Positions 1 through 26,984 of a stretch of 64,000 bases of DNA are shown here, piece after piece. The notes under the pieces were generated by a model, which saw nothing but the letters and a program-made list of their open reading frames with translations, was not told the DNA's origin and made no database searches. Position 1 is the stretch's first letter; each line of letters opens with the position of its first letter. Source of the stretch: Rhodopseudomonas julia (GTDB lineage Bacteria > Pseudomonadota > Alphaproteobacteria > Rhizobiales > Afifellaceae); NCBI RefSeq assembly GCF_030813515.1, contig NZ_JAUSUK010000001.1, forward strand, positions 992,001 through 1,056,000, written 5' to 3'. The translations under genes and the position numbers were made by a program.

Positions 1-863
1 GCGCCGAGAGCCGCGCCCTGGCGGGTGAAAAAGGCAAAGGCGAAGAGCACCGAAAAGGAGCGGATCATGATATCGCGATTGACGACGATGAGCCGCGCAA
101 AGCCGGCCTTATCGAACACACGCTTGAGAGATGGCCGCTGTGCGCCGCTCACATGCGGGATGAGGAAGGGGAGGAAAGCGAAAAAAGCCACCATCTCGGC
201 AATGACCGACGCCGCCGCGACGCCGGTAACTCCCCAGCCAAAATCCAGCACGAAGAGGAGCGACAGGACGATATTGGTGAGCGTCAGCACCGTCTGCAGC
301 GCCAGCACCAGAAAGGAACGGCCGATGCCGAGGGCCCAGCCGACGAGCGCGTAGTTCGCCAGCATGAAGGGTGCAGCCCAAATGCGCACCAGGAGATAAT
401 TGGAGGTCGCATCGGCAACCTTCGGTCCGACATCCATGGCGACGATGCCAAGGCGCGTGACCGGCACCTGACAAAGGATGATGACGAGGCCGGCAACGAG
501 CGCGATCAGAAGCGCGCGCACAAGGGTCGCCTGCTCCTCCTTGCGATCGTTGGCGCCAAATGCCTGGGCGACGAGACCCGTCGTGCCGGAACGCAAGAAA
601 TTGAGGGTCGTGAAGATCACGTCGAGGATAATGGCGCCGACGGCGATGCCGCCGATGAGCGCCGCGTCTCCGAGCTGGCCAATCACGGCCGTATCCACCA
701 GTCCCGCGAGCGGCACCGAAAGGTAGGCGAGCGTCATTGGCACGGCGATGCCGAGGACCAGCCGATTGTTGACCACAAAAGGCTTTGGGGCGGGGTCCAT
801 CTCGGGCTTTGCGGGGGCGCCTGCTTTGTCAGGCGATTGGACGGGGCTCGTCTCGCTCATCAT
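1..863 (-). CDS. MATE family efflux transporter (3' part missing)
   Basis: Inner-membrane multidrug/organic-cation antiporter of the MATE (DinF-like) family, which exports substrates against Na+ or H+. The frame is open from an ATG at 863 to the left window edge, giving 287 visible residues; the C-terminal third lies outside. The N-terminus is a short Pro/Ala-rich cytoplasmic leader, followed by a segment with the family pattern: 'VPMTLAYLSVPLAGLVDTA' (TM1), 'VIGQLGDAALIGGIAVG' and later 'RSGTTGLVAQAFGAND', the usual MATE loop. At least seven hydrophobic segments are visible. The two adjacent ATGs at 863 and 860 are both possible; a stop lies in frame just upstream. Substrate cannot be predicted. 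Confidence is high for family, none for substrate. Confidence 0.9.
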   Translation of the reverse strand, partial: MMSETSPVQSPDKAGAPAKPEMDPAPKPFVVNNRLVLGIAVPMTLAYLSVPLAGLVDTAVIGQLGDAALIGGIAVGAIILDVIFTTLNFLRSGTTGLVAQAFGANDRKEEQATLVRALLIALVAGLVIILCQVPVTRLGIVAMDVGPKVADATSNYLLVRIWAAPFMLANYALVGWALGIGRSFLVLALQTVLTLTNIVLSLLFVLDFGWGVTGVAAASVIAEMVAFFAFLPFLIPHVSGAQRPSLKRVFDKAGFARLIVVNRDIMIRSFSVLFAFAFFTRQGAALG

Positions 864-975
864 CTATGCCATACAGCAAACCGCCGGCCGCGAAACCACT
901 ACAAAAGTTCACACTATGTTCCAAGCGCCGAATGTTCCAAGCGCTGTTCGCAATGAGTGGCGCGCCCGCGAGACA

Positions 976-1254
976 TCAGTCCCGGCGCCCGCCCATCAGG
1001 GAGAGCAAGCGCATGATGAGAAAGATCGGCACCACTATGAGCGCGCCAAAAAGAAAGTAGCCGAAGGCGTCGGAAAAGACGGCGAAGCCCATATGGTAGA
1101 CGCGCATGACGAAACGCTCCGCCCAATAATAAATGTCGAACGGATGCACGTTGAGCACCGACAGCACGAGGCCGACGATCACTGACAGGACGATGAGACG
1201 AAGAAGGACCCGAAAAGGGGAATCGCCCAGGAAGCGTGTCATCCGGCCCGCCAT
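976..1254 (-). CDS. DUF6460-type small inner-membrane protein
   Basis: A 92-residue membrane protein with two hydrophobic helices (about residues 15-35 and 60-80) separated by a short segment with 'NVHPFDIYYWAERFV', ending in a basic tail. This pattern matches the alphaproteobacterial DUF6460 family; function is unknown. An upstream in-frame GTG (1260) is possible, but the strong Shine-Dalgarno GAGGAG lies 8 bases before the ATG at 1254 and only 2 before the GTG, so the ATG is preferred. It lies between the MATE gene and the ATP-dependent ligase, all on the minus strand, with gaps too large to insist on one operon. Confidence 0.75.
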   Translation of the reverse strand: MAGRMTRFLGDSPFRVLLRLIVLSVIVGLVLSVLNVHPFDIYYWAERFVMRVYHMGFAVFSDAFGYFLFGALIVVPIFLIMRLLSLMGGRRD

Positions 1255-1341
1255 ACTCACGTCTCCTCTTGTGCGACCGGCTGAGAGCTAGGGTTTCGCA
1301 GCACGAATGGCAAGCCGATACCTCAAGAGATCGATCGTCGA

Positions 1342-2970
1342 TCATACCTGCTGCGGCAGCAGTTTTTCCAGCTCATCGAGACGATCCGCCTCGGCGGCGG
1401 GCTTGTCCCATCTGATCCGGCTGATGCGGGGAAAGCGCATGGCAACCCCGGATTTGTGGCGACTGGAACGGGCGAGACCTTCAAAGGCCACCTCGAGAAC
1501 GAGACCGGCGTCCGGGCCGGCCCGCACCGCCCGCACCGGACCGAAGCGGTCGACCGTATTGTTGCGCACGAACCGGTCGAGCTCCTTCAGCTCGTCGTCG
1601 GTAAAGCCGAAATAGGCCTTGCCGACGGGCACGAGTTCCCCCTCCTCGGCCTTCTCCGCCGTCCAGACGCCGAACGTGTAATCGGAATAAAACGAGGACC
1701 GGCGGCCATGGCCGCGCTGGGCATACATGAGCACAGCATCGACCAGGAAGGGATCGCGCTTCCACTTGAACCATGGACCTTTCGGTCGCCCGGCCACATA
1801 AGCACTATCCCAGCGCTTCAGCATCAAGCCTTCGGCGATCTCGTCGAGATGCCCCTCGGCGGGCGGATTGCTCCGCAGATGCGCAAGCTCGTCCCAATCA
1901 CGAAAGCCGACCAGGAGGGAAATGTCGATGCGCGGCGACGACAGGCGCACGATAAAGTCCTCGAGCCGGCGCCGCCGTTCTGCGAAGGCAAGCGGGCGGA
2001 GATCCTCGTCGCCCTCCTGCAAAAGATCGTAAGCCCGGATGAAGGCGGGATAATCCTTGAGCATCTTCGCCGTCACGCGCTTGCGGTTGAGGCGTTGCTG
2101 CAAATCCGAAAAGGGTGCGATGGCCATTCCCCCTTCCCCTTCGCGCGCCACCAGGAGCTCGCCGTCGATCGCGCCGTCGAATTCCATTTGCTCCAAAACG
2201 TCGGGAAAGGCGCCGGAAATGTCATCACCGGTGCGGGAATAAAGCCGGCGTTCTCCACCGGAAGCCGCTGCCTGGATGCGGATACCGTCCCATTTCCACT
2301 CGGCCGCATAATCTTTCGGATCGAGCTTCGGGAAATCCTCGTCCTGGATGGCGCTTGCCAGCATCACAGGCCGGAAGGGCGCCTTCTGCTTCGATTGCGG
2401 CCTCTCTCCCCGCCCTTCCAAAAAGGCGAAGAGATCGACATAGGGCGGCTTCAGCCCATGCCACATCTCCTCGACCTCGGTCGCCGGGCGGCCACCGAAT
2501 TCCGCCAAAGCCTGACGCGCGAGACGCGCCGTCACACCGATCCGCAGCCCACCCGTAATGAGCTTCAGAAGCGCGTAACGTCCGCTCGGATCGAGTTCGT
2601 CGAGCCAGTGAGACACAAGTCTCGGTCCCTCAAGACGGGACGCCGCCGTCAGCCGCTCCACCACCTCGGCAAGATGCGGCGCCGTCCCGAAATCGCTCCT
2701 GCCCGGCCAGATCAGCGAGACGGTTTCAGCCAGATCGCCGACATAATCATAGGAAAGCGCGAAGAGGACGGGGTCGACCCGCTCCTCCACCAGGGCACGG
2801 ACCATGGCCGGCTTGACCGAGACGATGTCGAGGTCGCCGGTGATCGCCGCGATCGCATAACCGCGATCGGGATCTTTCACCTGACGCAGATAATCGACCA
2901 GAAGCCTGATCTTGCCATTGCGTTGTGGCGTGAGGGTGAGACGATCGAGAAGGGCGGCAAAGACCTGCAT
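1342..2970 (-). CDS. ATP-dependent DNA ligase of the 'ligase-associated' repair set
   Basis: Seals nicked DNA using ATP through a ligase-adenylate intermediate; the family is TIGR04120/PRK09247 ('cisplatin damage response' ligase), distinct from the essential NAD ligase LigA. About 542 residues: an N-terminal DNA_ligase_A_N helical domain (residues 1-190), an adenylation domain with the nucleotidyl-transfer motif K-W-D-G near residue 225, motif 'EGLMLK', motif V 'WFKWKRD', then an OB-fold C-terminus. The frame stays open upstream to 3162, but the added residues are Cys/Arg-rich and non-family-like; ATG 2970 begins 'MQVFAALLDRL', which fits relatives. Its usual partners lie nearby: exonuclease (4063-5073), helicase (5765-8356), phosphoesterase (8301-9032). 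Predicted role is DNA damage repair, not replication. Confidence 0.92.
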   Translation of the reverse strand: MQVFAALLDRLTLTPQRNGKIRLLVDYLRQVKDPDRGYAIAAITGDLDIVSVKPAMVRALVEERVDPVLFALSYDYVGDLAETVSLIWPGRSDFGTAPHLAEVVERLTAASRLEGPRLVSHWLDELDPSGRYALLKLITGGLRIGVTARLARQALAEFGGRPATEVEEMWHGLKPPYVDLFAFLEGRGERPQSKQKAPFRPVMLASAIQDEDFPKLDPKDYAAEWKWDGIRIQAAASGGERRLYSRTGDDISGAFPDVLEQMEFDGAIDGELLVAREGEGGMAIAPFSDLQQRLNRKRVTAKMLKDYPAFIRAYDLLQEGDEDLRPLAFAERRRRLEDFIVRLSSPRIDISLLVGFRDWDELAHLRSNPPAEGHLDEIAEGLMLKRWDSAYVAGRPKGPWFKWKRDPFLVDAVLMYAQRGHGRRSSFYSDYTFGVWTAEKAEEGELVPVGKAYFGFTDDELKELDRFVRNNTVDRFGPVRAVRAGPDAGLVLEVAFEGLARSSRHKSGVAMRFPRISRIRWDKPAAEADRLDELEKLLPQQV

Positions 2971-3272
2971 GCCGCGAATATAGGCATCCAGGTGGCAGAG
3001 ACGAACATACCACCGCCTCTTCGGACCACAAAACGCCATTGATGCGATGCAGCATCTGCCGTTTTCGCAAGCCCTGCGACAGCTCGTCTCAGTAGCACGA
3101 GTGTGCTGATACATCAGGCACTTGATGGACAATTGTGCTATGCAAAAACAATCCTGCTGCATTGCAATAGGACGGGTTGGCAGACGGGCGAAGGCGCAGC
3201 ATTTAAAGGGAGTTCGTCAGCTGCCGTTGCCGTCCCGATATGGCTCGGCCCCGACCCCGGAAGGATCGCATC
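2971..3272. other. Divergent intergenic region between ligase and small plus-strand ORF
   Basis: About 300 bases with no convincing gene. It must hold the promoter of the minus-strand ligase and probably one for the plus-strand pair 3273-4059. It is locally more AT-rich (around 3110-3215) than its surroundings. I see short inverted repeats (GATGC/GCATC near 3040-3055) but no confident operator. Confidence 0.4.
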
Positions 3273-3473
3273 ATGGCCCATGCAGCACACGGCTCGTTCA
3301 GTTTCGCCGGCCGGCTCCACGTGCCCGCTCGGTTTCGCCGCGCATTGAATTGGATCATTTGGGCGCGCGAAGCAGAAGCCATTCGCCGCATCGAACAGGA
3401 ATCCGGCTTTCTCATCGGACCGTCGCAGCTTCGCGAGATGAAGCGCCATCACCTTGCGCATCGGCCACTGTGA
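3273..3473 (+). CDS. Small hypothetical protein upstream of GNAT gene
   Basis: Possible 66-residue protein, basic and His/Arg-rich, with a central 'RFRRALNWIIWAREAEAIRR' stretch and no signal peptide. Supported by a good Shine-Dalgarno (GGAAGGA, 7 bases before the ATG) and by lying 22 bases upstream of the GNAT start in the same direction. A longer start at 3240 would lack a ribosome site. I do not recognise the family; it could be spurious. Confidence 0.4.
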   Translation: MAHAAHGSFSFAGRLHVPARFRRALNWIIWAREAEAIRRIEQESGFLIGPSQLREMKRHHLAHRPL

Positions 3474-3495
3474 CGGTGAACCTGGCTGAGGTTGC

Positions 3496-4059
3496 ATGAC
3501 GACTTACATCCGCAAGCTCTGGCCGTATGAGGCCGCGCTCTTTTCGGAGCATCTGTGCCGGCTCGGGCCCGAGGCGCGGCGTATGCGCTTTGCCGGTCCG
3601 GTCAACGACGCGCGCATCAAGAACTATGTCCGTGAAGCCTGGGATCTGGACACCACGATCCTTGGCTATTTCGTCAACGGCGTTATCCGCGGCTCGGCGG
3701 AGCTGCACCCACTCACGAAAGAGTGGACGGGCAAGGCCGAGGCGGCTTTCGCGATCGAAGAGGCTTGGCAGGGACGTGGCGTCGGCCGCGCACTTCTTGC
3801 GCGCACCTTCACACTCGCCCGCAATCGCGGCTTTCGCCAGCTGCACCTCTTCTGCCTGCAAGAGAACCGGCGCATGCTGAAGCTCGCGCGCGAGCTCGGC
3901 GCACGCCTCACCTATGACGAGGGCGAAGTCGACGCGCTGCTCGAACCGCCGCTTGCCAACCCGTTCTCCTGGTACGGCGAAGCGCTCGATGATGCGGAAA
4001 GCGCGTTCCAGGCAACATTGAGCCTGTTGCAGCCGAAGCCTGCCGGTGTGGCGGCCTGA
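3496..4059 (+). CDS. GNAT family N-acetyltransferase
   Basis: 187-residue acyl-CoA-dependent N-acetyltransferase. The acetyl-CoA pyrophosphate loop is 'WQGRGVGRALL' (residues 91-101), preceded by the usual beta strands 'GSAELHPL' and 'AEAAFAIEEA'. The C-terminal tail (about residues 145-187) is longer than a minimal GNAT domain. Substrate unknown. It converges on the ligase-associated exonuclease with a 3-base gap between stop codons, so it sits inside the repair cluster but on the opposite strand. Whether it takes part in that system is only suggested by position. Confidence 0.88.
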   Translation: MTTYIRKLWPYEAALFSEHLCRLGPEARRMRFAGPVNDARIKNYVREAWDLDTTILGYFVNGVIRGSAELHPLTKEWTGKAEAAFAIEEAWQGRGVGRALLARTFTLARNRGFRQLHLFCLQENRRMLKLARELGARLTYDEGEVDALLEPPLANPFSWYGEALDDAESAFQATLSLLQPKPAGVAA

Positions 4060-4062
4060 GCA

Positions 4063-5073
4063 TCAATCATGCTCGTCCTCGTAACCCGCAAGATGTAGCG
4101 GGCGGGCGGCCACGCCGTTGAGCTCACACCAGCGCAACAGCGCGTCGTCGCGGCCATGGGTGATCCACACTTCGCCAGGCGCAATTTCTTCAATCGTCTG
4201 CAGCAGCTCCCCCCAATCGCAATGATCGGAAATGACGAGCGGCAATTCCACGCCGCGCTGTCGGGCCCGCTGACGGATCATCATCCAGCCTGACGCAAAA
4301 CAGGCGAGAGAATCGGGAAAGCGGCGCGCCCAGCGGTCGGAAAAAGCCGAGGGCGGACAGACGACGATGGCGCCGGCAAACTCACCTTTACGCCCATTGT
4401 CCACGGTTGCCGGCGCGAGCGGGCCAAGATCGAACCCCTCCTCACGATAGAGATCGCACAGACCCTTCAAAGCACCGTGAATATAGATCGTGCGGTCGTA
4501 TCCCGCCTCCCGGAGAAGGCCGATGACGCGCTGGGCCTTGCCGAGCGCATAGGCGCCGACAAGATGCGTACGTTCGGGGAAAACCTGCGTCGAGTGAATG
4601 AGCTTGGCGATCTCGCCGCGATCGTCGGGATGGCAAAAGACCGGCAGGGCGAAGGTCGCCTCGGTGATGAAGACATCGCAGGCGACCGGCTCGAAGGCGG
4701 CACAGGTCGGATCCTTGCGTCGTTTGTAGTCGCCCGAAGCAACGATGCGGAAGCCGTCCTTTTCCACGGCGATCTGCGCCGATCCGAGCACATGGCCGGC
4801 CGGGTGAAAGCTGACAGAGACACCGTTGATGGCGACCGCTTCGCCAAGCTTCGCTTCCTCTTTGGAGGCGGCGAAGTCCGCCCCATATCGGGCCGCCATG
4901 ATCTTCAACGTCTGTGACGTCGCCATGACGGCGCCATGACCGGCGCGCGCATGATCGGCATGGCCGTGGGTGATGAGCGCGCGTGGCACCGGCCGGGTCG
5001 GGTCGATGTAGAAATCTCCCGGCGGGCAGTAGAGGCCTTTCGGCGTTGTGCACAAAAGCTCGGTCGGGCGCAT
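4063..5073 (-). CDS. Ligase-associated DNA exonuclease (beta-CASP metallo-beta-lactamase fold)
   Basis: 336-residue predicted DNA exonuclease of the TIGR04122 family (related to SNM1/Artemis and CPSF-73). The metal-binding motif H-x-H-x-D-H is seen in 'ITHGHADHARAG' near residue 36; later conserved elements are 'HPAGHVLGSAQI' (residues ~94-105) and 'VASGDYKRRKDPT' with the next metal ligand D, and a C-terminal 'WITHGRDD'. It is one of four members of the ligase-associated repair set. The upstream RAMA gene on the same strand ends 74 bases before this start, so the two may be co-transcribed (5651 down to 4063). No strong Shine-Dalgarno precedes the ATG. Confidence 0.9.
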   Translation of the reverse strand: MRPTELLCTTPKGLYCPPGDFYIDPTRPVPRALITHGHADHARAGHGAVMATSQTLKIMAARYGADFAASKEEAKLGEAVAINGVSVSFHPAGHVLGSAQIAVEKDGFRIVASGDYKRRKDPTCAAFEPVACDVFITEATFALPVFCHPDDRGEIAKLIHSTQVFPERTHLVGAYALGKAQRVIGLLREAGYDRTIYIHGALKGLCDLYREEGFDLGPLAPATVDNGRKGEFAGAIVVCPPSAFSDRWARRFPDSLACFASGWMMIRQRARQRGVELPLVISDHCDWGELLQTIEEIAPGEVWITHGRDDALLRWCELNGVAARPLHLAGYEDEHD

Positions 5074-5147
5074 TTCGCCGACATAGGGGTGCGGGCCGGG
5101 TTTTCCATGTCTCCGACACGTCGTGCCGGAGCTTTTTGCCCTTGCGG

Positions 5148-5651
5148 CTAAATCTCGCCGAGCCGCAGCCAGCGGTCGTCGTCGGGTCGCCGCACCTCCC
5201 AGATGCGCCAGCCGTTGAGATTGACCTTCTTGCCGTCGCGGGTGCGCACATGCGCGATGAGCGCCGCCGAGGGAGAGTTGTAGCTCGTGCCGTTCACAAC
5301 CCAGTGGCCGTCAACGATGACGCCTTCCACCGTCTGGCCGGCATAAGCGGCTCTAAGAGTGGTACCGTTCGGCAGAAACACTTCGTGACCGTGACGGCCG
5401 ATCTTCGACCAGCCGCCCTCCTTGGCACCGCCACCCTTGGCGCGCCGCGCACGTTCGCCGGGGCTTTCTTCCGCAGCCGCACTCCCTCCTCTGCGGCCGT
5501 CGAGGCCGAGCAGGCGACGGAGGATGGCGTTCTGCGTCTCCTCAAAATCTTCACGTGCACCTTCGATCCTCTTGTGCACATCCATGTCGACAGCAATCGT
5601 GGCGAGGTTCTCCTCGTCCTTCTTCTTGCCGCCCTTTTTCTTCTTGGCCAT
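5148..5651 (-). CDS. Ribbon-helix-helix plus RAMA-domain protein
   Basis: 167 residues in three parts. Residues 1-14 are a Lys-rich tail. Residues ~16-50 ('ATIAVDMDVHKRIEG' ... 'NAILRRLLGLDG') look like a ribbon-helix-helix DNA-binding module similar in pattern to the SeqA N-terminus. A flexible Gly/Ala/Arg linker follows (51-80), then residues ~85-165 fit a RAMA domain (restriction-enzyme/adenine-methylase associated), with 'GVIVDGHWVVNGTSYNSPSAA' broken by the typical 'NGWRIWEVRRP' end. RAMA domains are proposed to read modified DNA; a stand-alone RHH-RAMA protein is unusual. It lies between the exonuclease and the divergent helicase of the ligase-associated set. Start 5651 follows a GGGGGAGG purine run; ATG 5672 is an alternative. 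No methylase or nuclease domain is present. Confidence 0.72.
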   Translation of the reverse strand: MAKKKKGGKKKDEENLATIAVDMDVHKRIEGAREDFEETQNAILRRLLGLDGRRGGSAAAEESPGERARRAKGGGAKEGGWSKIGRHGHEVFLPNGTTLRAAYAGQTVEGVIVDGHWVVNGTSYNSPSAALIAHVRTRDGKKVNLNGWRIWEVRRPDDDRWLRLGEI

Positions 5652-5764
5652 GCCTCCCCCCGGCAGCCGCATCTTGGCATTGTGGAACTTTTCGACGTCG
5701 CGGGGGACGCGACGCAACGTCAGGTCCGCTCGACTTGGGCGCCGCCAAGCCTAAACTCATCGTC
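5652..5764. promoter_or_regulatory. Divergent promoter region, RAMA gene / helicase
   Basis: 113 bases between two start codons pointing away from each other. It must carry promoters for the RAMA-exonuclease pair (minus) and the helicase-pdeM pair (plus), making it the shared control point of the repair cluster. I could not place a confident -35/-10 or a LexA box (no GTTC-N7-GTTC or related pair seen). Confidence 0.4.
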
Positions 5765-8356
5765 ATGACGGCACCCGCTGCGATCCCCATTGGCGAAAAC
5801 GGGCTCCTGCCGGAGCGTTTCCAGCAATGGTTCGCCGACCGGGGCTGGGCACCGCGCCCCCATCAGCTCAAGCTCATCGCGCAAGCGCGGGCGGGATCCT
5901 CGTCGCTTTTGATCGCTCCGACCGGCGCTGGCAAGACGCTCGCAGGCTTTCTGCCCTCACTCATCGAGCTTTCGCAAGCGCGCGAGAGGCGCAATTCATC
6001 ACATTTCATCGGTCCGCACACCCTTTATGTCTCGCCGTTGAAGGCGCTCGCCGTCGATATCGAGCGCAATCTCGGCATGCCGGTCGCCGAGATGGAGCTG
6101 CCCGTGACGGTGGAAACGCGCACCGGCGATACACCCGCCCATAAGCGACAGCGCCAGAAACTCAGCCCTCCCGACATCCTTCTGACGACGCCGGAGCAGG
6201 TTGCGCTTTTGATCGCCTCACGCGATGCGGAGCGCTTCTTCGCGCGCCTGTCGACCGTCGTCTTCGACGAATTACACTCTTTGACCCCTTCAAAGCGCGG
6301 CGACCTTTTGGCGCTCGGGCTTGCGAGGCTGCGCAGGCTTGCGCCGGGCCTTAAAACGATCGGCCTCTCCGCTACGGTCGCCTTTCCCGAAGATCTGCGC
6401 GCCTGGCTCGTCGAACAGCGGCCAGAGGCGCCGTGCAATCTCGCCGAGATGGTGGTCGTTGGCGAAGGCGCGCCTCCGGAGATTTCGATCCTGCATTCTG
6501 AAACGCGCATCCCCTGGTCGGGGCACACGGCCCGCTATGCGCTGCCTGAGGTGCTAGAGGCGATCAAGAGCCACCGCATGACGCTCGTCTTCGTCAACAC
6601 GCGCTGGCAGGCGGAGATGCTGTTCTCCGAGCTCTGGCGCATCAACGAGGATGCACTTCCAATCGCGCTGCATCACGGCTCGCTCGACCGCGGTCAACGC
6701 CGCAAGGTGGAGGCGGCGATGGCAGCGGGCTCTCTGCGTGCGGTCGTTGCCACCTCAACGCTCGATCTCGGCATCGACTGGGGCGACGTCGATCTCGTCA
6801 TTCATGTCGGTGCGCCAAAAGGCGCAAGCCGGCTCGCGCAGCGGATCGGGCGTGCCAATCACCGCATGGACGAGCCGTCCCGAGGGCTTCTCGTGCCCTC
6901 AAACCGTTTCGAGGTGATGGAATGCCAGGCGGCACTCGAAGCCAATGAAGCCGGCATTCAGGATACGCCGCCGCTCCGGCCCGGCGCACTCGATGTCTTG
7001 TGCCAGCATATCCTCGGCATGGCCGTCGCCGCCCCGTTCGACCTTGAAGCCCTCTATGACGAGGTGCGCTCGGCAGAAAGCTATCGCGGCCTCAGCTACG
7101 AGGAATTCGAGCAGGCGGTCGATTTCGTGGCGACCGGCGGCTATGCGCTCAGGAGCTACGAGCGCTACGCCAAGATCCGCCGCCGCAAGGACGGGCTTTG
7201 GGCGCTCTCGCATCCGAAGCTCGCCCAGCAATACCGGCTCAATCTCGGAACCATCGTCGAGGCGCCGATGCTCAATGTGCGCCTTGCCTCCAGGCGTGGG
7301 GGGAAGGACGGCCGCCCCGGCACGGTGCTGCGCGGGGGACGCATCCTCGGCAAGATCGAGGAATATTTTCTGGAACAGCTCGTTCCGGGCGACACGTTTC
7401 AGTTCGCCGGCCAGGTTCTCGCCTTCGTCGGCATTCGCGAAAACGAGGCGCTGGTCACACGTGCCGAGGCCAACGACCCAGCCATCCCCTCCTATGCCGG
7501 CGGCAAATTCCCTTTGAGCACCTATCTCGCCGCCGGAGTGCGGGCGATGCTCGCCGATCCCACCCATTGGGAGAAGCTGCCGAACCAGGTGCGCGACTGG
7601 CTCGCCATTCAGCGCGAGGTCTCGGTGCTGCCCTCAAAAGACGCGCTTCTCGTGGAGACCTTCCCGCGTGACACGAAATTCTACATGGTCGCCTATCCTT
7701 TCGAAGGCCGGCTCGCGCATCAGACACTCGGTATGCTGTTGACGCGCCGGCTGGAGCGGGCGCGCGCCCGCCCGCTCGGCTTCGTCGCCAACGATTATGC
7801 GCTCGCCGTCTGGGGGCTGCGCGACATGGGGGCTTTGTTCGCCACGGGCAAACCCGCGCTCCCGGAGCTCTTCGACGAAGACATGCTGGGCGACGATCTG
7901 GAGGAATGGCTGGCAGAGAGCTATCTCTTGAAACGCAGCTTCCGCAACTGTGCCATCATCGCCGGACTGATCGAGCGTCGGCATCCCGGCGAAGAGAAGA
8001 GCGGCCGGCAGGTGACGATCTCCACCGATCTCATCTATGACGTGCTGCGCAGCCACGAGCCCGACCATATTCTGCTCAAAGCCACGCGTGCAGATGCTGC
8101 CACCGGGCTTCTCGACATTCGCCGGCTCGGCGAAATGCTGTCGCGCATCCGGGGGCGAATCGTGCATCAAAGGCTTGCGCATGTCTCACCGCTTGCCATC
8201 CCGGCCATGCTGGAAATCGGCCGGGAGCCGGTCTTCGGCGAGGCGCAGGAGGATCTCCTGGTCGAGGCCTCCGAGGAGCTGATGCGCGAAGCTATGGGCA
8301 GTGAGGCAGCTTTTGGCGCTGGCGGAGAATTCTCACAGAGACGAGATCTTGTCTGA
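5765..8356 (+). CDS. Ligase-associated DEXH-box DNA helicase (Lhr-Core type)
   Basis: 863-residue superfamily 2 helicase of the TIGR04121 family. Walker A is 'APTGAGKT' (residues 51-58), Walker B/DEXH is 'VVFDELHSL' (~residue 165), motif III 'LSAT' (~202), and motif VI 'QRIGRANHRMD' (~360). A long winged-helix/beta-barrel C-terminal region characteristic of Lhr follows. Characterised Lhr-Core enzymes are ATP-dependent 3'-5' translocases on single-stranded DNA. The upstream frame is open from 5555, but residues before ATG 5765 overlap the divergent RAMA gene and are not family-like. The next gene, pdeM, starts inside its 3' end, so both are translated from one message. Confidence 0.93.
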   Translation: MTAPAAIPIGENGLLPERFQQWFADRGWAPRPHQLKLIAQARAGSSSLLIAPTGAGKTLAGFLPSLIELSQARERRNSSHFIGPHTLYVSPLKALAVDIERNLGMPVAEMELPVTVETRTGDTPAHKRQRQKLSPPDILLTTPEQVALLIASRDAERFFARLSTVVFDELHSLTPSKRGDLLALGLARLRRLAPGLKTIGLSATVAFPEDLRAWLVEQRPEAPCNLAEMVVVGEGAPPEISILHSETRIPWSGHTARYALPEVLEAIKSHRMTLVFVNTRWQAEMLFSELWRINEDALPIALHHGSLDRGQRRKVEAAMAAGSLRAVVATSTLDLGIDWGDVDLVIHVGAPKGASRLAQRIGRANHRMDEPSRGLLVPSNRFEVMECQAALEANEAGIQDTPPLRPGALDVLCQHILGMAVAAPFDLEALYDEVRSAESYRGLSYEEFEQAVDFVATGGYALRSYERYAKIRRRKDGLWALSHPKLAQQYRLNLGTIVEAPMLNVRLASRRGGKDGRPGTVLRGGRILGKIEEYFLEQLVPGDTFQFAGQVLAFVGIRENEALVTRAEANDPAIPSYAGGKFPLSTYLAAGVRAMLADPTHWEKLPNQVRDWLAIQREVSVLPSKDALLVETFPRDTKFYMVAYPFEGRLAHQTLGMLLTRRLERARARPLGFVANDYALAVWGLRDMGALFATGKPALPELFDEDMLGDDLEEWLAESYLLKRSFRNCAIIAGLIERRHPGEEKSGRQVTISTDLIYDVLRSHEPDHILLKATRADAATGLLDIRRLGEMLSRIRGRIVHQRLAHVSPLAIPAMLEIGREPVFGEAQEDLLVEASEELMREAMGSEAAFGAGGEFSQRRDLV

Positions 8357-9032
8357 GACGCACATCGCGCTGTCCGGGCGCGAGCTGGTGCTCGATGTCT
8401 CCGGAGCGCTCTGGGATCCGGCCTCGCGGTTGCTGGTTGTGACAGATCTCCACCTGGAGAAGGCCTCGTCCTTCGGCCGCAGGCGCACGTTCCTTCCGCC
8501 CTACGACAGTGCCGCGACCCTGGCGGCCCTCCACAACCTAATCTTGCGCCGCAAGCCGAAAACCGTCCTATGTCTCGGCGACAGCTTTCACGACGGCGGC
8601 GGGCCCGACCGCCTTGCCGAGATCGATCGCGGCAAGATAGCCGCGCTTCAGGCAGGCCGCGATTGGATCTGGATCGCCGGCAATCACGACCCCGCTCCAC
8701 CACCGGGCCTTGGCGGCGAGTGTCTCGCGGAGCTTTCGCACAACGGCCTCACCTTCCGACACGAGCCGGAAGACACGATGGTGGAAGGGGAAATCGCCGG
8801 ACACCTTCACCCTTGCGGGAAAATCTCGCGGCGCGGACGCAGCGTGCGCCGGCGGGCCTTCGTGACCGACGGCACGAGGCTCGTCCTGCCATCGTTCGGC
8901 GTGTTGACCGGCGGGCTCAACGTGCTCGACCGGGCCTTTGTCAGCCTTTTCGCCAGGCGAGGCTTCATCGCCTTCCTGGTCGGAGCCGATCGGCTCTACC
9001 CGGTCGCTCCGGCGTCGCTCCGGCCAGACTGA
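8301..9032 (+). CDS. pdeM: Ligase-associated metallophosphoesterase PdeM
   Basis: 243-residue binuclear-metal phosphoesterase/endonuclease of the TIGR04123 family, partner of the ligase-associated helicase. Metal motifs are in order: 'VVTDLHLEK' (D-x-H), 'CLGDSFHDGG' (GDxxHD), 'IAGNHDP' (GNHD) and 'AGHLHPCG' (GHxHP). The only plausible start giving the complete first strand is GTG at 8301, so the gene overlaps the helicase by 56 bases in another frame, indicating translational coupling. The family is reported as a manganese-dependent DNA phosphodiesterase acting with the Lhr-Core helicase. The C-terminus is slightly extended beyond the core fold. Confidence 0.9.
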   Translation: MRQLLALAENSHRDEILSETHIALSGRELVLDVSGALWDPASRLLVVTDLHLEKASSFGRRRTFLPPYDSAATLAALHNLILRRKPKTVLCLGDSFHDGGGPDRLAEIDRGKIAALQAGRDWIWIAGNHDPAPPPGLGGECLAELSHNGLTFRHEPEDTMVEGEIAGHLHPCGKISRRGRSVRRRAFVTDGTRLVLPSFGVLTGGLNVLDRAFVSLFARRGFIAFLVGADRLYPVAPASLRPD

Positions 9033-9108
9033 GCGAACCGCGTCGCCGAGACCAGGCGCCGAGACCGGACGCCGACGTCAGGTGCCGGGGCCAGTCAGTG
9101 AGACCACC

Positions 9109-13800: not shown

Positions 13801-14983
13801 CTACCGGGCCGAGGTCGGACCGGTTTTCGCCGAGACCTTCAATCCGCTCCGCCAGACGGTCGAGCTGTGCGGCAAGATCGTCGATGGCGCCGATCCGGTT
13901 GTCGCGGATCTCATCCATCGCCGCCGCAAGCATGTCGAGCCGGCTTTCGATACGGGCGAAACTCTCGTCTTCATCGCCGCGATCGTGGGGTTGTGAGATT
14001 GCATCAATGCGACCGGCGAGTTCGGCGAGCCGGGCTTCGATCGCATCAAAGGCTTTGCCCTGCGGAAGCGCGGCGAGACCGATGCGAATGGCGGCGATTT
14101 CCTCGGAGAGCGCCTGAGGCTGGACCACCGCGGCGACACTGCGATGCAGCGCTTGAAGGCGCAGATCAACATCGCCCATGCGCTCCTGCAGAGAAGCGAG
14201 CGCGCCGCGCGAAGGGCGCACCTCGTCTTCGAGTGCATGCTGCAGCTTCTCGATCTGGCGCAAGACTTCAGCGTTCTTGTCGGCGGCATTCGTGTCGGCC
14301 GGAGCGGGCTTCCTCTCGAGGTCGTCGGCGGGCGCGGGGCGGGAACTCTCTGCTGGCGCTTCGCTCTTCGGGCGCCGGGTGGCGAGATCGCGGGCGAAAT
14401 CGGCGAGACCGCCAGCGAATGCGCGGCGCGGTTCGGTGGGCTTTTCGGAGGAAGCAGACTTGCGGGAGACCGGCGCCCGGACGCGCGATTCGGTGGGTGT
14501 CGCCCGCGGTTCCGGCGCGGGCGCCTCTTCGGGGGCAGCGGCGTGCCTGCCAGCGCCACCACGTGACAGCTCCTCCAGATGCCGTTCGAAGGCGTCGAGA
14601 CGCTTCAAGAGGTCATCGGCTGCATCCGACGCCTGTTCGGAGGAAGGGGGGGTCGACGTCAGCGGCTCGTCGAACGTACCTGGAACCGGAGGCGCGGGCG
14701 GCGAACGACGGCTGCGGGCTTCCGTGGTGCGATCGGCCTCGCCGCGTTCCGCCTCGTCGATGCGCCGCGCAAGCGCTTCGACGGCCGCCTGCAAATGTTC
14801 GGTGCTGATGTCGCCCTCGCCGGCAAGGCGCTCGGCTTGAGAATCCGCATAGGCCGGCTCGTGAATGATGCGGCCTTCAGCATCGAAGCGCGCATTCAAC
14901 AGAGCCCGCAGATCGGTTTCCCCCTGACCCGGCGCGCGCGGGGGCGATCCTGCTCTGCCTCTCCATGATGTGCGGGCTTTCAT
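10883..14983 (-). CDS. podJ: PodJ-like polar localization factor (Sel1 repeats, peptidoglycan-binding tail)
   Basis: 1366-residue bitopic inner-membrane scaffold. Residues 1-250 are Pro/Ala/Glu-rich and low complexity. Residues ~250-680 form a long coiled coil of degenerate 'RLDRLAERIEGL'-type heptads. One TM helix lies at ~905-925 ('LLVAGAVALAVAFAAVQFV'). A periplasmic Pro-rich linker, four or five Sel1-like TPR repeats (~1085-1245; 'AAETGVTEAQFEVAVRYAEG'), and a C-terminal PG_binding_1 domain (~1300-1366; 'LLSRKGYDPGPADGIFGKKT') follow. This order is that of Caulobacter PodJ, which recruits polar signalling and pilus/holdfast components. Start chosen at ATG 14983 because GAGGAG lies 7 bases upstream. 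It is monocistronic and divergent from the MerR gene. Confidence 0.85.
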   Translation of the reverse strand: MKARTSWRGRAGSPPRAPGQGETDLRALLNARFDAEGRIIHEPAYADSQAERLAGEGDISTEHLQAAVEALARRIDEAERGEADRTTEARSRRSPPAPPVPGTFDEPLTSTPPSSEQASDAADDLLKRLDAFERHLEELSRGGAGRHAAAPEEAPAPEPRATPTESRVRAPVSRKSASSEKPTEPRRAFAGGLADFARDLATRRPKSEAPAESSRPAPADDLERKPAPADTNAADKNAEVLRQIEKLQHALEDEVRPSRGALASLQERMGDVDLRLQALHRSVAAVVQPQALSEEIAAIRIGLAALPQGKAFDAIEARLAELAGRIDAISQPHDRGDEDESFARIESRLDMLAAAMDEIRDNRIGAIDDLAAQLDRLAERIEGLGENRSDLGPVEGRLSELSERIQTVPDTRPMLTALDDKLTRIATSLDDRSVGSSDIEEITQRLDRLAAEISGFLTESEERFSLKPVLDRLSEIDARFAEERVDVDQLSGLVARMEDAVTSAPIGERFAALEARIQGLDEKLPDSDSGLLNDIVDLRSEIAELRADIRNSPPTADAGVRVLQPAIREIKERLDRLPEEPARFNRELEAQIGRISAMLDRPAAESKALTRLEDALADIRERLDRQELHHDAETWHAAGVDTAEGSEALARLASALQHDLGELKSVAEASEERTLSSLDAVHETLEAVVKRMAFLERDLPLSGDDNGGSNPPAPRAAPHGDDGRPSGKAPSSTAPSSQKPGPGGSVQWSPRPPAPEPEKRVEDTTPSGLLSRLSATQLLKRATGGRAESFVPRQEEEVTLDALLEPGGGPLHSDLADAPSSASHYISAARKNASSQTNGSEEALAAAYEDFRAQSRNRETSSSDFLSAARRAARAAAAEAAAAERDAGRAKGHGGSQILDFFKARRRLLVAGAVALAVAFAAVQFVKVRGEEARTANSHPAIETPAPAPKETEVPGDGSSIVQPSPASGEAMMEAGNAAPLPRPDRETAFSTRLSALPGLSAQELTPPARASAPKPEAEQEMALDRTPESSPPSAPAEPDDTEMFSDAEALSQTASITPPPSAQAQTSAPMAQGPAASHLSTPLPASIGSEKLRRAAETGVTEAQFEVAVRYAEGRGVASDQATAVAWYERAARGGLAPAQYRLGSIYEKGRGVPKDIDKALSWYGKAADAGNVKAMHNLAVLYAEGADGAPDLEKAADLFERAAERGVRDSQFNIAVLFARGLGVKQDLVAAYKWFAVAARSGDQQAKKRQQEIADALPQDLLPEAKKAAETFKALPIDPQANMVFAPESGWGEHVGESVSLSGPDLVKHTQDLLSRKGYDPGPADGIFGKKTRQAIASFQKDNGLSVTGEIDTGIIKALEEKDI

Positions 14984-26381: not shown

Positions 26382-26984
26382 TCAGAAGGTGCGCCAACCG
26401 AGCAGAATGCGCGAGGTCGTCGTCACGGCGCAAAGCGCCGCAAACAGGTAGGCGAGAGGCGAAAAAAACGCGGGAAACAGGCAGAAGGCGAGGAAGAAGA
26501 TCACCGTCTCCGCGCCTTCCATGAGCCCGGTCGTGAAATAAAGCGACTTCACGCCGCGCTGGTCCGTCGTGATTTTCTTCTTTTCCGCCATCACGGCGAA
26601 GGCGAGAAAGCTCGCGCCGTTGACGTAAAAGGCGAGAAGCAGGATCGCGGCCGCAAGTGCGTTGGCGTCCGGATCGGCGAGCGCGAAGGCGGCGGGAACG
26701 AGGCCGTAAAAGGCAAAATCGAGAGTGATATCGAGGAAGCCGCCACGATCGCTCAACCTGGTCGCACGTGCGACGGCACCATCGAGCCCATCGGCGAGAC
26801 GGCCCAAGAGAATAAGAACGAAAGCAAGTACGTAGGCCTCGACGACGATCGCGCCGGCGGCGACAAGGGCGAGACCGAAGCCGGCCAAAGTCACCTGATC
26901 GGCGGTGACACCGCGGCCGGCGAGCATCCGCCCGAGAGAGTTCAACCCGGGTTCGATCTGCTTGCGGATAAGCCCGTCGAGCAT
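26382..26984 (-). CDS. CDP-alcohol phosphatidyltransferase family protein
   Basis: 200-residue integral membrane enzyme that transfers a phospho-alcohol from CDP-alcohol (phospholipid head-group synthesis). The catalytic signature is 'DGLDGAVARATRLSDRGG' followed by 'FLDITLDF' (~residues 65-90), carrying the four metal-binding Asp residues; five or six TM helices follow. Start 26984 has a consensus AGGAGG 7 bases upstream; the frame is open to 27281 over the divergent gene. Alcohol acceptor not predictable from the sequence. Confidence 0.87.
   Translation of the reverse strand: MLDGLIRKQIEPGLNSLGRMLAGRGVTADQVTLAGFGLALVAAGAIVVEAYVLAFVLILLGRLADGLDGAVARATRLSDRGGFLDITLDFAFYGLVPAAFALADPDANALAAAILLLAFYVNGASFLAFAVMAEKKKITTDQRGVKSLYFTTGLMEGAETVIFFLAFCLFPAFFSPLAYLFAALCAVTTTSRILLGWRTF

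Follow-up and report, generated by a model that had tools for sequence, protein, structure and literature searches.

The closest described systems are SeqA of E. coli, for the N-terminal part of the protein discussed here, and the RAMA domains of CcrM and MPND, for its C-terminal part. As laid out in PMC6225831, SeqA consists of an oligomerisation domain (residues 1-33), a linker (34-64) and a DNA-binding domain (65-181); its dimers are described as able to build filaments (PMC8488378), and the filament residues are given as T18, I21 and A25 (PMC6225831). RAMA was predicted to be a sensor of N6-methyladenine, a prediction supported by one MPND pull-down (as cited in PMC9963953 and PMC11037411); other papers continue to count it among readers, proposed or known (PMC11037411, PMC12839542), and a 2026 survey of BREX systems presents it as a reader module known for modified-base binding (PMC12839542). 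In the account of MPND in PMC9963953, residues S113, S115 and W135 contact the DNA backbone and their mutants nearly abolish binding, which is reported to be unaffected by adenine methylation (6mA) and reduced by mismatches. The C-terminal domain of CcrM, named a RAMA domain in the same paper, touches phosphates of the non-target strand and is termed a non-specific DNA-binding domain in PMC6787082, where the CcrM structure with hemimethylated DNA is described as showing no difference. Published data on a preference of RAMA for methylated adenine are conflicting (PMC9963953, PMC11037411), and since the solved RAMA domains grip the backbone and a 6mA preference is not confirmed, the designation of RAMA as a modified-DNA reader is unproven.

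The 64 kb stretch of Rhodopseudomonas julia DNA analysed in this work (the window) encodes a small protein in which a SeqA_N-type ribbon-helix-helix (RHH) segment is joined to a RAMA domain. We found no description of this pairing in the papers searched; PMC12707154 contains both terms, but they are used apart there. The protein is a new arrangement of two known domains, and most likely a dimeric DNA binder with the layout of SeqA.

Domain composition and layout of the RHH-RAMA protein

The open frame runs from 5651 to 5148 on the minus strand, from an ATG immediately preceded by a purine-rich stretch (GGGGGGAGGC), and encodes 167 residues. On the same strand, the alignment delimits a lysine-rich N-terminal tail (residues 1-17; 5601..5651), with a net charge of +4, which is found in the host-family copies and is short or missing in most other aligned copies. 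It is followed by the SeqA_N-like RHH (residues 18-51; 5499..5600), delimited by Pfam, a homologue profile and a structure model, by a linker taken from the AlphaFold model (residues 52-80; 5412..5498), and by the RAMA domain (residues 81-167; 5151..5411), which rests on Pfam, homologues and motif alignment.

Searched with the window protein alone, Pfam gives RAMA (PF18755) at residues 96-153 with E=1e-4 and SeqA_N (PF17206) at residues 18-51 with E=0.0028, scoring 22.6 and 17.3 bits where the cut-offs stand at 35.2 and 23, respectively; from sequence, we regard both matches as weak but real. Nothing else is matched in Pfam at E up to 1, neither a nuclease or methylase domain nor any repressor family of the Arc/MetJ/CopG RHH type, and NCBIfam gives no match. 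The initial annotation was therefore right in describing a 167-residue RHH-RAMA protein devoid of a nuclease or methylase part; MetJ/Arc, which it had named beside SeqA_N as a profile to search with the N-terminal segment, is not matched.

The two domains stand more firmly at the level of the family. We built a profile (A3) from 15 homologues, 14 of which share 31-80% identity with the window protein; it omits the near-identical copies of genomes G001 and G002, the five partial matches found in the class (G267, G386, G485, G487 and G288), the plasmid match H5 and the phage match H6 (RAMA half only), the six viral copies (which are in A5/A6) and the later-found copies of G701 and G853. RAMA was matched by 12 of the 15 homologues (best E 4.5e-8) and SeqA_N by 10 (best E 1.2e-6; Pfam, E up to 0.05). 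The profile finds the SeqA N-domain structures 1xrx (E=0.0011) and 3fmt (E=0.0032), and reaches the MPND RAMA structure 7ydt at E=0.9 only. Among 398 genomes of the phylum it has matches in 18 at E<=1e-5: five are full-length, all in the host's class (host counted), and 13 are partial, in other classes. Seven of these partial matches are SeqA according to NCBIfam (six above the cut-off), found via the N-terminus; the remaining six cover mostly the C-terminal half. The support from the homologue set and the recovery of SeqA by the profile lead us to take RAMA and SeqA_N as real, independent halves, as the initial annotation had proposed, even if each falls below its cut-off in the single protein. 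A separate observation concerns DUF2924 and DUF4357, which are matched in Pfam by five and three of the 15 homologues, respectively, and by the window protein in neither case at E up to 1. Three Pfam models, RAMA (5151-5411 in the window) being one, hence match members of a single homologue set, suggesting a relationship among them.

Structure prediction was less informative. A first AlphaFold model, from four sequences, was poor (mean pLDDT 56); a second, from ten sequences including six viral-contig relatives, reached a mean pLDDT of 71.8, with two short helices (23-31 and 40-47), a linker below pLDDT 50 at residues 54-72, and a beta-rich C-terminal domain with one main helix and block means of 69-91. 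A Foldseek search of the PDB gave nothing significant for either model (E<=0.001), and the best 50 matches listed for each lacked CcrM, MPND and any RAMA structure; on these models, the outcome for a claim of a RAMA fold is negative.

At the level of motifs, S126, S128, N146, G147, W148 and W151 align with residues that contact the backbone or belong to the core in MPND and CcrM. By motif and identical spacing, and not by structure, S126, S128 and W148 correspond to S113, S115 and W135 of MPND; they are conserved in 13, 14 and 15 of the 15 homologues, respectively. The window protein thus shares with MPND the S-P-S and W backbone-contact residues, but MPND is eukaryotic, carries an MPN domain and acidic flanks, and is without SeqA_N. 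With the C-terminal domain of CcrM it shares membership of the RAMA family and the N-G-W-x-x-W motif, whereas the methyltransferase part of CcrM is missing and Arg350 has no counterpart at the C-terminal end of the family copies, as read from the alignments. Profile comparison with the tail of the host CcrM gave a weak match (26% probability over 27 columns) and the CcrM family was matched weakly by two of the 15 homologues (best E=0.013); we rejected similarity to CcrM by profile comparison as too weak on its own.

The likeness to SeqA (NF008389/PRK11187) extends to the order of the domains (oligomerisation, linker, DNA-binding), to a similar size and to the N-terminal segment, which is recovered reciprocally. 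The two proteins differ in the C-terminal domain, which in SeqA binds hemimethylated GATC and is replaced here by RAMA, and in the filament residues: among the 15 homologues, T18 is R in all, I21 is F in 11 or E in four, and A25 is variable. Since these positions are not conserved, SeqA-style filaments are unlikely. The net charge of the N-terminal domain, -3 in the window protein and 0 to -4 across the 15 homologues, is zero or negative in every case, which speaks against this domain as the DNA-binding part. The window protein is not a SeqA, but by analogy it may work like one. Its SeqA_N-type RHH would dimerise, and the flexible linker would lead to a C-terminal RAMA that grips DNA, giving two DNA-binding heads per dimer; a RAMA of the CcrM/MPND type would thus take the place of the hemimethylated-GATC domain of SeqA, with a lysine-rich tail gained in the host-family form. 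The data on the MPND and CcrM domains lead us to expect the activity to be dimeric, mostly sequence-independent binding of double-stranded DNA.

Position in the ligase-associated cluster and relatives elsewhere

The gene lies, as first annotated, directly upstream of the ligase-associated exonuclease (TIGR04122; 4063..5073, minus strand), with the same orientation and 74 nt between the two, and is divergent from the ligase-associated DEXH helicase of Lhr type (TIGR04121; 5765..8356, plus strand, likely start 5765). Beyond the helicase is the ligase-associated endonuclease PdeM (TIGR04123; 8301..9032, plus strand); beyond the exonuclease are a GNAT acetyltransferase (3496..4059, plus strand) and the cisplatin damage response ATP-dependent DNA ligase (TIGR04120; 1342..2970, minus strand). 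The TIGR04120, TIGR04121, TIGR04122 and TIGR04123 genes all score above the NCBIfam cut-offs.

By affinity the host falls within Afifella, and Afifella marina has a copy 96% identical to the window protein. Among 11 genomes of the host family, the RHH-RAMA gene was found in seven and the exonuclease in ten. All seven copies precede the exonuclease and share its strand, 40-457 nt separating them from its match, and the gene order from PdeM to the ligase is identical in six of the seven carriers (read in the window and in loci L008, L009, L010/L034, L032 and L033; G001 left out). The gene is probably transcribed with the exonuclease; the largest gap, 457 nt in G004, weakens the case for co-transcription there. 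In the Afifella genomes read, an acetyltransferase gene separates exonuclease from ligase; in G006 and G009, which belong to related genera, none was found at this place. Collinearity with G006 and G009 continues past the cluster, so that inheritance accounts for at least part of the shared position. Three genomes (G007, G008 and G010) have the exonuclease without a detected RHH-RAMA copy; in the first two, the exonuclease and helicase genes point away from each other and their matches are only about 100-120 nt apart. In G010 (L031, G010:C148:26500-33000) there is no helicase match within 4.1 kb upstream of the exonuclease, and the cluster seems to be broken up. The exonuclease tree is weakly resolved and does not separate gain from loss of RHH-RAMA: three changes are needed, possibly a single gain plus two losses.

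The RHH-RAMA protein is under purifying selection: dN/dS was 0.06-0.25 in the ten pairs among five genomes of the same genus, and 0.27-0.51 in the 11 pairs involving the other two genera, for which dS is high. For the exonuclease, dN/dS was 0.03-0.15 between G000 and the other four same-genus genomes. Retention under purifying selection, where in G006 and G009 no acetyltransferase gene was found between exonuclease and ligase, is modest evidence of usefulness. Our best reading, which we hold to be about an even call, is that of a small dsDNA-binding protein on the SeqA plan acting as an accessory of the ligase-associated cluster.

Relatives elsewhere give a different picture of linkage. Because the searches of order and class score only the top first-pass candidates, weak relatives may be missed in the following counts: in the order, the exonuclease is present in 115 of 199 genomes and RHH-RAMA in six at E<=1e-6, while in the class E<=1e-4 is reached in 11 of 385 genomes, with a full-length copy in six (host counted). 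The six carriers of the order sample, a draw that does not contain G006 and G009, are five genomes of the host genus and G167, in which the exonuclease was not found. Conversely, tblastn with the window protein (E<=1e-5) found RHH-RAMA at none of 20 exonuclease loci of the order outside the family, over the 6.5-7.5 kb read at each. Eighteen full-length copies outside the family were checked, from eight genome assemblies (G167, G218, G230, G346, G400, G578, G701 and G853), four plasmids and six viral contigs, and none was linked to the cluster. The exonuclease was not found in three of the eight genomes (G167, G218 and G400), is on another contig in G346, G701 and G853, and is about 1.8 Mb away in G230 and about 0.6 Mb in G578 (the latter assuming a circular chromosome); the plasmid and viral stretches, of which 7-12 kb were read around each copy, contain no cluster gene. 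For the partial class matches, which are not counted in the 18, the exonuclease was located on a different contig in G386 and G288, and no exonuclease turned up in G485 and G487; in G267, the partial match is on a 4.9 kb contig and the exonuclease on another, 129 bases from a contig start, so that adjacency is possible. The link to TIGR04120-04123 genes proposed in the initial annotation therefore holds inside the host family, in seven of seven copies, whereas outside it the homologues checked are scattered and unlinked, and a general association of RHH-RAMA with the ligase cluster is rejected there (0/18 copies, 0/20 exonuclease loci).

Some of these relatives occur on plasmids of Alpha- and Betaproteobacteria, and three of the six viral-contig copies lie beside portal, terminase or tape-measure genes. 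The copies at L059:4989-5441, L061:5010-5405 and L062:5001-5408 are full-length and on the strand opposite to the phage genes, a moron-like arrangement. In Rhizobium sp. 007, a plasmid copy (L027:4839-5222) and the genes of an N6-methylase and a restriction specificity subunit are divergently oriented, and a viral-contig copy (L057:5001-5396) has a DNA methyltransferase (6504-8012) about 1.1 kb away. We also looked for a common partner of distant copies in ten neighbouring proteins from five loci. Seven match Pfam (PhyH, peptidase M24, short-chain dehydrogenase, ParB, TPP enzyme, DUF4329 and DSBA) and three match nothing at 1e-5; no function recurs among these ten, and the idea of a common partner finds no support in them. 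A sparse family of mobile origin that then settled in the cluster of an ancestor of the Afifella group fits these distributions best, and one of its copies would have become fixed in the slot between exonuclease and helicase.

Such an origin also bears on the strongest alternative, that of a mere passenger: a moron-like gene of phage or plasmid landed between exonuclease and helicase and was inherited without a functional tie to repair. The phage and plasmid relatives and the missing linkage of all 18 outside copies speak for this explanation, and the broad collinearity of the region in G006 and G009, together with the divergent exonuclease-helicase arrangement of G007 and G008, agrees with it. 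It fits less well with the purifying selection on the protein, with its retention in three genera where the acetyltransferase of the neighbouring gap was not found in two related genomes, and with a base composition (GC 0.637, GC3 0.76) in line with that of the neighbouring genes. We consider it possible, and rather improbable.

The intergenic slot

The 113 nt between the divergent RHH-RAMA and helicase genes (5652..5764) are where a local regulator would be expected to act. RHH folds are frequent in small repressors, and a divergent slot is a typical position for a local regulator; an RHH dimer binding the promoter region shared by exonuclease and helicase could control both arms of the cluster. 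A conserved element is at hand, since GTCGAG (CTCGAC on the helicase strand) is the chief block common to the six carrier intergenic regions compared. The same block, however, is present upstream of the helicase not only in L008-L010, L032 and L033 but also in three of four loci without RHH-RAMA (L029, L030 and L071; not L070), and in several loci a TANNNT-like hexamer comes about 17 nt after it, so it looks like a helicase promoter and not an RHH-RAMA operator. The form in the window, CTCGAC-N17-TAAACT on the helicase strand, is likely, as far as sequence can tell, to be the helicase promoter. CTCGAC/GTCGAG is moreover common, with 102 counts on both strands of the 64 kb. Arc/MetJ-type repressors bind with a basic strand, whereas the N-terminal domain here resembles the oligomerisation domain of SeqA and is negatively charged. 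Regulation of the cluster by this protein is thus unlikely, and the promoter finding weakens the idea slightly, within the low probability it already had.

Other elements were sought in the same region. A scan of 3900-5900 for the sigma-70 consensus found none, 0.2 being expected from shuffles. The damage-box motif GTTC-N7-GTTC does not occur between 1342 and 9032, the slot included; the window has it at 14672, at 26940 and, about 0.4 kb beyond the 3' end of the ligase gene, at 907. Local control of the slot through GANTC was rejected, as 5652-5764 contains no such site.

RAMA, CcrM and DNA methylation

Two proteins of the host genome match PF18755 at E<=0.05, CcrM (63.8 bits; L055:616-1821, plus strand; C1:626892-627950 of the host genome) and the RHH-RAMA protein; the RAMA proteins of the host at this threshold are thus a GANTC methylase and a SeqA_N fusion. 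A CcrM-type methylase was found in 17 of the 18 genomes checked, comprising ten of the family, carriers and non-carriers, and the eight outside carriers, G218 being the one without; these calls are at E<=1e-20, and none exceeds the curated cut-off (830 bits), the highest score being about 629. As CcrM is widespread in the class, its co-occurrence does not single out a CcrM/RHH-RAMA pair.

The initial annotation proposed that the protein recognises modified or damaged DNA and acts as a recruitment factor for the ligase-associated enzymes. The N6-methyladenine prediction with its one MPND pull-down (PMC9963953, PMC11037411), the place given to RAMA among modified-base readers in the BREX survey (PMC12839542) and the production of CcrM by the host all point this way. 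They are met by an MPND indifferent to 6mA, with lower binding to mismatches (PMC9963953), by a CcrM C-terminal domain described as a non-specific DNA binder (PMC6787082), by the lack of any cluster link found outside the family, and by a paucity of GANTC around the gene, with only 4 sites in the first 9.1 kb (1-9100) against 75 in the whole 64 kb and none in the slot. We regard this role as quite unlikely. One might further speculate, with very little probability, on a SeqA-like factor of CcrM-bearing Alphaproteobacteria, in which a SeqA_N dimer with RAMA heads of CcrM type would sense newly replicated, hemimethylated GANTC and so tie the repair set to fresh DNA behind the fork in Afifella and its kin.

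Free of a nuclease or methylase, the RHH-RAMA protein is a simple test case for sensing by RAMA, and its presence in a repair cluster is a testable, unproven link between DNA marks and repair. Should it turn out to read methylated GANTC, it would be the equivalent of SeqA for a group that has CcrM in place of Dam; if it were a true partner of the ligase-associated enzymes, it would be a targeting subunit added to a poorly understood repair set.
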